Part shown: piece by piece, positions 5,430 to 8,678 of the stretch
Layout of the letters: every line of letters begins with the position of its first letter
Numbering within the stretch: position 1 is the stretch's first letter
Source: an uncultured Pelagibacteraceae bacterium
GTDB lineage: Bacteria; Pseudomonadota; Alphaproteobacteria; Pelagibacterales; Pelagibacteraceae
Direction: 5' to 3'
Length of the DNA stretch: 64,000 bases
Assembly (NCBI GenBank): GCA_902623975.1
Contig: CACNVR010000002.1
Location: 62,001-126,000 of the forward strand
Program-made: the position numbers and the translations under genes
Notes under the pieces: model-generated
What the model was told of the DNA's origin: nothing
The model's input: only the letters and a program-made list of their open reading frames with translations
The model's database searches: none

Positions 5430-6344
5430 TTGAAAAAAAAAATATTAATATTGTCGGGTGGAATATCTAAAGAGAGATATATAAGTCTAGATACAGGCAA
5501 ACAGGTTGGAAGAGAACTTGTAAAAAATGGTTATAAAGTAAAATTCTCTGAACCAAATTATAATTTATTTAGTGCTATAAAATCATTTAAACCAAACATA
5601 ATATTTAATGCATTACACGGACAATTCGGTGAGGATGGTTACATTCAAGCAATATTAGAAACTACAAAAATACCCTATACTCATTCAGGCGTAATCTCAT
5701 CCGCAATAGCAATGGATAAAGAATTATCAAAAAAAATATTTTTAAAAAATGATATCTGTACTCCAAACTTTATAAGTTACTCCTTTGATAAGTCTAAATT
5801 AGAACTCACAAGAATTATTAGTAAAAAATTAAAATTTCCTGTAGTAATTAAACCAATAAACGAGGGATCAAGTGTTAACGTTTTTATTTGTTCCAAAACA
5901 AATTTTTTTAAGATAATTCAACGATTAAAAGATTATAAAAAGATATTAATAGAGGAATTCATTCCAGGACGTGAAATACAAGCAGCAATAATTGGTAAGA
6001 AAAAATTAGGAGCAATTGAATTAAAACCAAAAAGAAAATTTTATGATTACCAAGCTAAATATAACTTAAAAGCAAAAACAAAACATATTATTCCAGTTAA
6101 ACTATCTAAAAAAGATTATGATAAAATAATGAGTATTTCACTGAAAGCCCACAATCTGATTGGTTGTAGAGGCGTTACACGCTCTGACTTCAAATTTTTT
6201 AGGGGGAAATTTTATTTACTCGAAATCAATACTCAACCTGGCATGACAAATCTCTCTTTGGTTCCCGAGATAGCTGCTTATCGTGGAATAAATTTTATTA
6301 AACTTCTTGAATTAATTTTAAAAGATGCTGGCACTAAAAAGTAA
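5430..6344 (+). CDS. ddl: D-alanine--D-alanine ligase (TTG start)
   Basis: Ddl makes the D-Ala-D-Ala dipeptide for peptidoglycan through an ATP-grasp mechanism. The 304-residue protein has the family features LSGGISKER at the N-terminus, LHGQFGEDG, the ATP-grasp strand VVIKPINEGSS, EFIPGREI and the metal-binding end EINTQPGMT. The only start that keeps the N-terminal strand is a TTG at 5430, one base after the murB stop, which suggests translational coupling. Its 3' end overlaps ftsQ by 20 bases. Confidence 0.93.
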   Translation: MKKKILILSGGISKERYISLDTGKQVGRELVKNGYKVKFSEPNYNLFSAIKSFKPNIIFNALHGQFGEDGYIQAILETTKIPYTHSGVISSAIAMDKELSKKIFLKNDICTPNFISYSFDKSKLELTRIISKKLKFPVVIKPINEGSSVNVFICSKTNFFKIIQRLKDYKKILIEEFIPGREIQAAIIGKKKLGAIELKPKRKFYDYQAKYNLKAKTKHIIPVKLSKKDYDKIMSISLKAHNLIGCRGVTRSDFKFFRGKFYLLEINTQPGMTNLSLVPEIAAYRGINFIKLLELILKDAGTKK

Positions 6345-6999
6345 AAAGATTTATATATATATTTTTTTATTATTATTTTGCACAACTTTAAATAACAAAT
6401 ATTTCTATAATTTAGATTTCCCTAAAATAAACAATATTGAAGTATCAGGTTTAGAACAAAAAGAAAATATTAAATTAATAAATCAATTAGATTCTTTAAA
6501 GATGAAAAATTTGTTTTTTTTAAAAAAAGATGAAATAGAAAAAATTTTTGACTCAAATTATTTAATTGAAAAATATCATATTTTTAAAAATTATCCCTCA
6601 TCATTAAAACTAAAGATTATTAAAACAAAATTTTTGGCGACTACTAATAGAAATGGAAAATTATACATTATTGGCTCCAATGGAAAGTATATAGAAGGAA
6701 AAAAAGTTATTAATGATATTCCGTTTATTTTTGGTGACGTAGATATTAAAGAATTTTTAAAATTTAAAATGATTATTGATAATTCTGATCTTAATTTTAA
6801 TGAAATTAAAAAACTATTTTATTTTCAATCAGGTCGATGGGATTTAGAAACTAATTCAGGAATTTTAATAAGATATCCAAAGAAAAATCTTAGGCAATCT
6901 TTAAATTTATCTATTAAAATATTAGATGATGAAAATTTTAAAGATGCAAAAATTATAGATCTTCGTCAAAATAAACAAGTTGTAGTAAATGAAAAGTGA
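6325..6999 (+). CDS. ftsQ: Cell division protein FtsQ
   Basis: FtsQ is a bitopic divisome protein that links early and late division proteins. The 224-residue product has a short cytoplasmic start, one membrane segment at about residues 9-20, then a POTRA-like periplasmic part (INNIEVSGL, followed by IFKNYPSSLKLKI) and a beta domain containing IIGSNGKYIEGK. Position between ddl and the ftsA-like gene supports the call, because FtsQ sequences are poorly conserved. It overlaps ddl by 20 bases and the next gene by 11. Confidence 0.88.
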   Translation: MLALKSKKIYIYIFLLLFCTTLNNKYFYNLDFPKINNIEVSGLEQKENIKLINQLDSLKMKNLFFLKKDEIEKIFDSNYLIEKYHIFKNYPSSLKLKIIKTKFLATTNRNGKLYIIGSNGKYIEGKKVINDIPFIFGDVDIKEFLKFKMIIDNSDLNFNEIKKLFYFQSGRWDLETNSGILIRYPKKNLRQSLNLSIKILDDENFKDAKIIDLRQNKQVVVNEK

Positions 7000-7693
7000 T
7001 GCAAATTTGAATTTTTTTCTATTTATTAGTTTTGATAAAATTGAAATCGTTGTTAAAAAAAAATCTAGTTTTGAAGAAATATATAAAAATAAAATTTTGC
7101 TTCAAAATAACTCAGACACATTAAGATTTGAATATTTAGACAAATTTTTAAGTGAAAACGTATTTAAAATTGAAAAAAAAATAAAAAAATTTATTCAAGG
7201 TGTTTACCTTGTTTTTGATAGCAAAGATTATATTCCCATTGAAATTTCTATTAAAAAAAAAAATCACGGTAATTTGATCGAAAAAAAAGATTTAGTATAT
7301 TGTTTAAAAGATGCAAAGGAACAGTGTAAAAAAACTTTAGAAAATAAAAAAATAATACATACGGTTATTGAAAATTACCGAATAGATCAAATTGACTATT
7401 CTTTTTTTCCCAAAGATATAAAATGTGATACTATTTGTTTAGATATAAGATTTATTTGTATTCCAAAAAATATAATTATAAATTTTGAGCAAATTTTAAA
7501 AAAATATCAAATTACCTTAGATCAAATTGCGAGTGCAGAATACGTGAGACAATTTTTTTCTCAAAATGAACATAATTTTTTTGATATGGCAGGCAAAATA
7601 ATTGATGGTTGCAATGAAAATGAGGTGGTATTTGTTAACAAAAGTAAGAAAAATAGAGGATTTTTTGAAAGATTCTTTGATCTTTTTAGTTAA
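6989..7693 (+). CDS. ftsA: FtsA-like protein lacking the ATPase lobes
   Basis: This 234-residue protein occupies the ftsA position after ftsQ but is just over half the usual FtsA length. Residues about 110-190 resemble the FtsA 1C (SHS2) domain: IIHTVIENYRIDQ matches the family pattern vlHviPqeYxiD, and LDQIASAEYVRQFF matches the end of that domain. The next expected block, the actin-like phosphate-2 motif (DIGGGT) with subdomains 2A and 2B, is missing. The protein passes to a short tail ending RGFFERFFDLFS, which looks like the amphipathic membrane-targeting helix at the FtsA C-terminus. If the gene call is right it can bind membrane and partners but cannot bind ATP as FtsA does. It may be a reduced functional adaptor or a decaying gene; the intact frame favours function. 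Confidence 0.72.
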   Translation: MKSDANLNFFLFISFDKIEIVVKKKSSFEEIYKNKILLQNNSDTLRFEYLDKFLSENVFKIEKKIKKFIQGVYLVFDSKDYIPIEISIKKKNHGNLIEKKDLVYCLKDAKEQCKKTLENKKIIHTVIENYRIDQIDYSFFPKDIKCDTICLDIRFICIPKNIIINFEQILKKYQITLDQIASAEYVRQFFSQNEHNFFDMAGKIIDGCNENEVVFVNKSKKNRGFFERFFDLFS

Positions 7694-7757: not shown

Positions 7758-8678
7758 ATGTCAGGGTTAAATCAAAAAACAATTAAAAACAGCTTTTCGT
7801 TAAAAGGTGTAGGGCTTCATACTGGCAAAGAAGTCTTGCTTACTGTTAAACCTGCACAACCTAACTCAGGAATTATCTTCAAAAGAGTAGACATTTCAAA
7901 AGACAACATAATTTTACCGAACGTGTATAATGTAAGCAATGCAGCTTACTGTACAACAATAACAAATGATAGCGGAGTATCGGTATCAACTATAGAACAC
8001 TTAATGGGAGCTCTTTATGGTATAGGAATTGATAACGCTTTAGTTGAAATTAATAATCAGGAAGTTCCTATTTTAGATGGATCTGCAAAAATTTTTGTTA
8101 AGGAAATTTTGAGAGTTGGAATTGAGACAAGCACTACTCCAATAAAAATTATTAAGATAGAAAAAGAAGTTGAATTGGAAAAAGATGAAAAGAATATTAA
8201 GATTAAACCTAGTAAACTTAGTTTAGATATAGATTTTGAAATAAAATATAAGAATACATTAATTGGCACACAAAGAAACTCGATTGATGTTTATAAATCC
8301 AATCTTGACGATATTTATAATTCAAGGACATTTTGTTTATATGAAGATATTGAAAAATTAAGATCAATTAATCTAGCTCTTGGTGGCTCATTAGATAATG
8401 CTATTGTAGTGAGAGATGATCAGATTTTAAACAAAGAAAAAATAAGAAATCCAAAAGAATTTGTTAATCATAAAATTTTAGATTGTATGGGAGATTTATC
8501 TCTTTCTGGCTATAAAATCATTGGGAGTTTAACTTGCTCACAGGGTGGACATTCTTTAACTAATCAGCTTTTAAGAAAAGTGTTTGATGATAATACAAAC
8601 TTTTCAGTTCTTGAGGTAAAAGAAAAAATTGTACCTAATACATTGCTTAACAGAAGACATTTAAAATCTATAGCATAA
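7758..8678 (+). CDS. lpxC: UDP-3-O-acyl-N-acetylglucosamine deacetylase
   Basis: LpxC is the zinc deacetylase that commits UDP-GlcNAc to lipid A synthesis. The 306-residue protein shows SLKGVGLHTG at the N-terminus, the zinc-histidine motif TIEHLMGALYGIGIDNA, VPILDGSA, SRTFCLYED, and the second zinc site HKILDCMGDLSL. Length is normal. It follows the ftsA-like gene after 64 bases with no ftsZ between, which is unlike the common ftsQ-ftsA-ftsZ-lpxC order. A TATTAA box at 7742-7747 lies only about 10 bases before the ATG and could be a -10 element, but no convincing -35 accompanies it. Confidence 0.95.
   Translation: MSGLNQKTIKNSFSLKGVGLHTGKEVLLTVKPAQPNSGIIFKRVDISKDNIILPNVYNVSNAAYCTTITNDSGVSVSTIEHLMGALYGIGIDNALVEINNQEVPILDGSAKIFVKEILRVGIETSTTPIKIIKIEKEVELEKDEKNIKIKPSKLSLDIDFEIKYKNTLIGTQRNSIDVYKSNLDDIYNSRTFCLYEDIEKLRSINLALGGSLDNAIVVRDDQILNKEKIRNPKEFVNHKILDCMGDLSLSGYKIIGSLTCSQGGHSLTNQLLRKVFDDNTNFSVLEVKEKIVPNTLLNRRHLKSIA

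Follow-up and report, generated by a model that had tools for sequence, protein, structure and literature searches.

Work on FtsA treats it as an actin-like polymer that depends on ATP, and the locus described here raises the question of what such a protein could still do in cell division once its ATP-binding half has gone. In the window, a stretch of 64,000 nucleotides from an uncultured member of the Pelagibacteraceae (SAR11, order Pelagibacterales), the gene in the ftsA position encodes only 234 residues. The original prediction took its product to be an FtsA consisting of subdomains 1A and 1C plus a membrane tail and devoid of ATP-binding lobes. The gene and its immediate neighbours are:

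6325–6999, forward strand: ftsQ, the 5′ neighbour (Pfam FtsQ_DivIB_C and POTRA_1, above cut-off)
6989–7693, forward strand: short ftsA-derived gene, 234 aa, an open frame from ATG to TAA with zero internal stops
7758–8678, forward strand: lpxC, the 3′ neighbour, used as the anchor for finding the ftsA slot in relatives

The start of the short gene shares 11 nt with the end of ftsQ, and lpxC starts 64 nt 3′ of its end. The order ftsQ–short ftsA–lpxC thus places it in the ftsA slot, between ftsQ and ftsZ or lpxC. The genes on the 5′ side are, in order, ftsW, murG, murC, murB, ddl and ftsQ (the mur, ddl and ftsW names, like mraZ, rsmH, DnaK and RlpA below, are our presumptive assignments, read off the sequence). 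Among relatives, the ftsA–lpxC gap measures 58–70 nt in both families of the order, with three exceptions (L110, L140 and L257) that each have a shortened or cut lpxC frame.

The wider gene order has features of its own. In the window's genome, ftsZ lies outside the ftsQ–ftsA–lpxC block, about 15.7 kb upstream of position 6989 and beyond the window (L007:8246-9709; Pfam), flanked by mraZ- and rsmH-like genes; lpxC is directly 3′ of ftsA in both families read. Just upstream of the window, a 949-aa frame (L007:12724-15573) carries three Mur ligase Pfam domains, each twice, and is a probable murE–murF fusion.

Sequence profiles tie the short protein to FtsA: even with E values up to 10 admitted, Pfam and NCBIfam yield no match to any other family. 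TIGR01174 (NCBIfam ftsA) aligns with residues 93–185 (E 3.6e-4, 19.7 bits), far under the family cut-off of 175.85 bits; this cut-off is strict for the SAR11 order, because just one of 41 searched genomes of the order passes it, short and long forms pooled. The Pfam 1C domain, SHS2_FTSA, matches residues 94–153, also under its cut-off (E 0.048). Searching the PDB with the bare sequence gave four matches (E 0.059–0.21), with the T. maritima FtsA fourth and the other three unrelated. The TIGR01174 match is nevertheless not a chance one, since the same profile recognises 38 of the 43 short relatives with E values of 1 or below, the lowest being 5.2e-11, and since hhalign aligns the 43 short rows with a full-length FtsA profile (E. 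coli, five second-family and six long forms of the genus) over 207 columns, corresponding to window residues 3–213 (99.6%, E 1.8e-23). Frame, profile–profile alignment and slot together confirm that the protein in the ftsA slot has 234 residues and derives from FtsA, and on sequence grounds the gene is the positional orthologue of ftsA. By descent, then, it is FtsA; by the ATP-binding actin fold that defines the family it is not, and we refer to it as an FtsA-derived lobe-I protein rather than a standard FtsA.

Structure prediction leads to the same family. The AlphaFold model of the window protein (mean pLDDT 86.5, pTM 0.80) retrieves FtsA as the 19 top PDB chains in Foldseek, followed by PilM and GspL; these 19 include the 3wt0 chains, whose title merely reads 'Cell Division Protein'. 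The best E value is 3.1e-13 (4A2A), and chain 7q6i_D superposes with a TM score of 0.66 on the query and an rmsd of 3.0. In VIA, 11 FtsA entries are on top (Z 11.9–15.0, 196–204 residues, rmsd 3.0–4.5). A second AlphaFold model, of the divergent short relative L146 (pLDDT 87.6, pTM 0.83), likewise has FtsA chains at ranks 1–19. Both models thus adopt an FtsA fold, and the unrelated fold that would have spoken against the original prediction did not materialise. Consistently, hhalign, Foldseek and VIA all recover a lobe I in which 1C is inserted into 1A.

The two runners-up are instructive. The cytoplasmic domain of GspL/EpsL, some 230 residues in size, likewise has a reduced actin-like fold and works for a membrane complex (VIA Z up to 10.8), but it belongs to another machine, is reduced in another way and shares only 5–10% sequence identity. 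GspL/EpsL is, moreover, anchored by a transmembrane segment, not an amphipathic tail. PilM shares the 1A–1C arrangement, and a membrane-protein tail binds in its interdomain cleft, according to one report (PMC7613929); it differs in that its actin-like fold is complete, with structures determined in the presence of ATP, ADP and AMP-PNP, and reaches a VIA Z of 10.4 at best. With GspL and PilM next in structural rank, one may ask whether short FtsA has left cell division for a PilM- or GspL-like role in another machine. We regard this as most improbable: FtsA scores Z 11.9–15.0 against 10.8 or less, the ftsQ–lpxC slot is unchanged, the tail resembles that of FtsA, no further FtsA turned up in the genomes searched, and the gene is surrounded by mur, ddl, ftsQ and lpxC rather than by pilus or type II secretion genes.

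With the usual subdomain limits of FtsA, the protein divides as follows:

6989–7228, forward strand: subdomain 1A, N-terminal segment, residues ~1–80 (hhalign; AlphaFold strands and helix H47–65)
7016–7039, forward strand: decayed phosphate-1 loop, residues 10–17, FLFISFDK (E. coli GLEIGTAK; alignment)
7229–7468, forward strand: subdomain 1C (SHS2-type), residues ~81–160 (SHS2_FTSA, TIGR01174, AlphaFold/Foldseek)
7469–7564, forward strand: subdomain 1A, second segment, residues ~161–192 (hhalign, AlphaFold)
7565–7576, forward strand: junction at the missing lobe II (2A and 2B; alignment with long relatives of the genus)
7577–7627, forward strand: probable C-terminal 1A helix and NEV segment, residues 197–213 (long-relative alignments, VIA)
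7661–7690, forward strand: putative amphipathic helix at the C-terminus and candidate membrane tail, FFERFFDLFS, residues 225–234 (moment test, model, conservation)

Long relatives within the genus (369–394 aa) locate the deletion. Between two flanks, SYxKSxxYK and ICESGL, they carry phosphate-2, both lobe II subdomains (2A, 2B) and the adenosine motif; in the short forms, these flanks are joined directly on the two sides of a single junction. Short forms are about 135–145 residues below the closest long forms and about 150–160 below the remaining ones. Alignments with the long relatives and with E. coli FtsA agree that lobe II (2A, 2B) is absent, which confirms the earlier claim that 2A/2B and the DIGGGT loop are missing.

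Beyond the junction, residues 197–213 resemble the ICESGLKxxxGxxKQEV of the closest long relatives, and the NEV segment reads NENEVVFVNKS in the window protein versus KQEVVIVPKK in the closest long forms. Aligners disagree on this region: hhalign, in its last twenty or so columns, and one MAFFT run put residues 190–213 at the start of 2A, whereas other alignments and VIA match them with the C-terminal 1A helix or assign no residues to 2A. VIA pairs model residues 2–6 to 204–211 with FtsA residues 2–8 to 375–392, so that the last aligned model residue (204–211) meets FtsA residue 375–392; the C-terminal piece of the short protein therefore falls past lobe II, at the far end of FtsA. Probably, then, the C-terminal 1A helix is retained, lobe II having been cut out and lobe I rejoined. 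The predicted architecture of 1A, 1C and a membrane tail stands, as does the loss of lobe II, with the amendment that the C-terminal 1A helix is apparently also kept. Four sequences (L146, L149, L154 and L256) have a near-long-form C-terminus and are intermediate; we interpret them as transitional forms.

Compared with FtsA proper (TIGR01174; E. coli, T. maritima, S. aureus), the short form shares the slot after ftsQ, the lobe I fold with 1C in 1A, the C-terminal 1A helix (probable in the short form) and the amphipathic C-terminal tail (putative in the short form), but it lacks 2A/2B and the phosphate-1, phosphate-2 and adenosine motifs (E. coli FtsA has 420 aa against 234). The long FtsA proteins of the same genus and order share position and lobe I with it, the group of about 370 aa being nearest, and those of the genus end in the same GFFEKxFxxF tail as the short forms; they differ in retaining lobe II and, in the genus, also the D-x-G phosphate-1 loop.

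The loss extends to the part of the nucleotide site that lies within lobe I. Across the short rows (110 rows, 106 of them distinct, some genomes appearing under two locus ids), the acidic residue plus glycine of phosphate-1 occurs in 0/110, and the phosphate-2 and adenosine columns are empty in 110/110. In the long rows of the genus, phosphate-1 has its acidic residue in 36/36 (35 D, 1 E) and its glycine in 36/36, and phosphate-2 is mostly DIG[F/L/W/Y]x[R/K], not DIGGGT. The transitional sequences L146, L149 and L154 retain the acidic phosphate-1 residue, with Ser in place of Gly. The claim that the ATP-binding motifs have gone is therefore upheld and can be extended, as the phosphate-1 loop has decayed in addition.

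The second family of the order represents another state. Six rows were compared, in which the phosphate-2 glycines are lost in 6/6 and the phosphate-1 glycine in 5/6, yet lobe II is kept; loop decay alone thus does not entail lobe loss. The FtsA sequences of this family (L008–L022) are full-length with degenerate loops, for example DIRADK and DIQKNK, and judging by these motifs they are possibly already non-ATPases. Within the order, the sequences form a series that leads from degenerate loops to lobe II loss.

The C-terminus, by comparison, is strongly conserved among relatives. The last 10 residues of the window protein, FFERFFDLFS, have a hydrophobic moment of 0.71, which 1.8% of shuffles equal or exceed. 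With a moment above 95% of shuffles as the criterion, 106/110 short rows are amphipathic in a 10-residue window, 81/110 in an 11-residue window and 1/110 in a 13-residue window; in the 13-residue window, the first tried, the tail of the window protein is not amphipathic. The model places a helix at H225–233, with low confidence (tail block means 41–47). The amphipathic end that had been proposed is thus recovered with the 10-residue moment and not with the 13-residue one, and the sequence data are supportive of an amphipathic, membrane-type tail.

How widespread the short form is was assessed in 115 genomes of the genus, 114 of them at least 90% complete (one 6% contaminated) plus the window's own (85%). 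FtsA matches were obtained in 106 of the 115: 65 intact short copies (open frame of 220–245 codons), 30 long copies (370–401 codons) and 11 copies that are not intact; nine genomes gave no match. Among the single-contig genomes, the short form is intact in G322, G409, G431 and G106 and frameshifted in G012, and the long form is present in G479 and G424. A wider draw of 399 genomes gave 277 with a match (52/57 among the good ones) and 122 without, the latter mostly of lower completeness. Finally, of 198 relatives confirmed in named genomes, 80 were retained, all of them Pelagibacterales by record title, and the frame is 229–240 aa in 78 of these 80 loci, L131 being cut by a contig end and L139 interrupted; as the 80 were drawn with a short-form query, they are uninformative on the long-form share. 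A short form common to all SAR11 genomes, a point that the original prediction had raised, does not hold: 65 of 95 intact copies in the genus are short and 30 long, and in the second family of the order 15 of 16 genomes have a full-size frame (397–403 codons; 393–396 aa). The sixteenth, G033, gave no match of FtsA size. Among the matches listed from the open-licence literature, no title or abstract opening describes a shortened FtsA from SAR11.

The non-intact copies do not reveal further forms. Nine of the 11 (G478, G180, G360, G165, G384, G435, G466, G453 and G468) are merely cut by a contig end, and their frames of 27–179 codons are thus no sign of N-terminal erosion below 200 aa. Nor is whole loss of ftsA evident in the nine genomes without a match: seven lack lpxC too and probably have a contig gap here, G464 holds a cut long form, and in G142 the place is at a contig edge. 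The other two non-intact copies are frameshifted, in G012 and G458, near codons 65–75 in an A-rich stretch, where sequencing error, decay or slippage may be at work; in lpxC orientation, the split genes span 716–1415 of L203 (G012) and 720–1422 of L201 (G458). A long-form ftsA is also interrupted in one locus (L028, G010), which has one in-frame TAA and yields a 183-aa frame and an 89-aa C-terminal frame.

Selection estimates argue for a functional gene. The dN/dS of the short forms is 0.23 (121 pairs among 43 rows with dS 0.1–0.5; pairs 0.09–0.36). By region it is 0.29 in the N-terminal part of 1A, 0.17 in 1C, 0.20 in the second part of 1A with the junction and 0.15 in linker and tail. Over 1394 pairs, where dS is large, the median is 0.50; the estimates given here come from the pairs with dS 0.1–0.5 alone. 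Values for lpxC are lower (0.05–0.12 for those of the 40 closest pairs that gave a value). This pattern suggests that short FtsA is a working, moderately fast protein under purifying selection, with tail and 1C most constrained. That the gene is a pseudogene in decay or arose through misassembly, as might be suspected from the frameshift-split gene in G012 (one contig) and G458 and from the interrupted frame in L139, is extremely unlikely in view of this dN/dS, the intact copies in 65 of 115 genomes, the 229–240 aa frame in 78 of 80 loci and the confident folded models.

Phylogenies of 51 short and 36 long rows, hand-picked, bear on the number of losses. In the FtsA tree, built on shared columns, all 51 short rows and seven long rows (~370 aa) form one clade (SH-aLRT 99) that sits among the other long rows, the rooting being our choice. 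Changes between the short and long states number at least three on the LpxC tree and two on the FtsA tree, and the starred branches alone force one and two, respectively. A single short-form clade is not rejected (AU p 0.10 and 0.65 for the LpxC and FtsA trees). Lobe II was thus excised in one or several events. That the long form is ancestral follows not from the trees but from its occurrence in the second family and among bacteria generally.

A complete FtsA elsewhere in the genome, named at the outset as the observation that would count against the original prediction, was found neither in the four single-contig genomes whose short form is intact nor in the frameshifted fifth (G012). The FtsA profile finds one place per single-contig genome (in G012, two pieces of one place). 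Searches with TIGR01174 (E up to 10) detected no other FtsA in G322, G409, G431, G106, G012, G426 or G472; in these seven short-form genomes (97–100% complete), the remaining matches fall in frames of 345–366 and 642–655 codons, which correspond in size to MreB and DnaK, respectively. This silence is weaker than the FtsA-profile result, because TIGR01174 detects the short protein in just one (G322) of the five single-contig short-form genomes and overlooks it in the other four. In the window's own genome (85% complete), TIGR01174 and PF14450 profile searches likewise revealed no second FtsA, and the other TIGR01174 matches are MreB (Pfam) and a frame that we take, from its sequence, to be of DnaK type. 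The same searches bear on the idea that FtsA is split, the short form being complemented by a lobe II chain from a gene of its own at another place. Nothing in its favour came up, and we hold it to be very unlikely, since the TIGR01174 and PF14450 matches beside short ftsA in the own genome are MreB and the DnaK-type frame, since those in the seven short-form genomes have MreB or DnaK size, and since phosphate-1 is decayed in 110/110 short rows, which a split ATPase would hardly tolerate.

What, then, can lobe I do alone? Judged from sequence, alignment and model, the residue is a predicted folded 1A–1C unit with a C-terminal membrane-type helix. The dock for the FtsZ tail in FtsA is subdomain 2B, as in the T. 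maritima complex (PDB 4A2A), and with 2B lost a link to FtsZ via the known route is unlikely. We surveyed ftsZ in 29 genomes, of which 27 have the gene (no match in G110 and G027) and one second-family record is cut, leaving 26 tails. The tail peptide is DLEIPAFLRRQKN, and EIPAFLRRQK plus one residue ends FtsZ in 15/15 short-form and 11/11 long-form genomes. Invariance across both forms implies that the FtsZ tail is still read by something and, given the loss of 2B, predicts either another tether or a new site. FtsZ of the genus mostly has 475–506 codons, with a long variable linker ahead of this tail.

Contacts described for FtsA elsewhere indicate what the deletion spares. In one report, lateral FtsA–FtsA contact is almost exclusively IC–IC and longitudinal contact IIA–IIB, and FtsN binds in the IA–IC cleft (PMC7613929). 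Two E. coli studies describe, respectively, loss of function in vivo upon the E14R substitution of an ATP-site residue (PMC10213515), and failure of an FtsA mutant without double-stranded filaments, for which ftsL* or ftsW* alleles compensate (PMC11323482). A SPOR search of 11 genomes, short- and long-form alike, showed no FtsN: it gave eight matches in seven genomes, and the seven proteins read are lipoprotein-like and, by eye, presumably of RlpA type, none with a cytoplasmic tail and a transmembrane segment.

As the lateral (1C) face, the cleft and the tail are spared and the sites for nucleotide, longitudinal contact and FtsZ-tail docking are removed, an ATP-free membrane adaptor is the simplest reading. 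The dependence of E. coli FtsA on ATP-site residues and on double-stranded filaments, the latter bypassed by ftsL* or ftsW*, and the failure to see FtsN in the 11 genomes speak against it. Probably, lobe II (2A and 2B) has been excised in frame and the remaining folded 1A–1C unit with its membrane-type helix is an adaptor that has no switch and needs no ATP. Short FtsA would sit on the inner membrane via its C-terminal tail, as a monomer or an IC–IC antiparallel dimer; it would bind no ATP, and the longitudinal IIA–IIB filament contact would be impossible. Its 1C surface and 1A–1C cleft may hold membrane divisome proteins (e.g. FtsW, FtsQ or a bitopic partner). The old tethering of FtsZ through 2B would be gone, and either another protein or a new site on lobe I would have to take it over. 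The linker-only role of FtsA originally proposed is an inference.

The second of these routes deserves separate mention, as a lobe I with a newly evolved FtsZ-tail site would remain the main membrane tether of FtsZ, only without ATP control. The unchanged EIPAFLRRQK in all 15 short-form and 11 long-form genomes and the retained tail helix are in line with it; the known dock, 2B (PDB 4A2A), is gone, however, and the conservation of the FtsZ tail is equally expected if other tail-binding proteins persist. We consider a new site on lobe I rather unlikely, though well ahead of a pseudogene, a split FtsA or a role in another machine.

Returning to the ATP-free adaptor, its consequences for the organism can be stated tentatively, at somewhat less than even likelihood: a large part of SAR11 may divide with an FtsA that neither binds nucleotide nor forms an actin-like filament. 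The essential job would then be to contact the septal synthase through 1C and the 1A–1C cleft; the steps that involve nucleotide and polymer could be dispensed with, and a different tail-binding protein would tether FtsZ. The short forms (in at least 65 genomes of one sample), the intermediates and their long sisters amount to a natural deletion series of FtsA. The series sets the portions on which division depends (1C, cleft, tail) apart from those it can do without (ATP, filament contact, FtsZ-tail dock). With it, one can test whether partner recruitment or polymerisation is the essential work of FtsA, and in SAR11, among the most abundant cells of the ocean, it points to a further tether for FtsZ.
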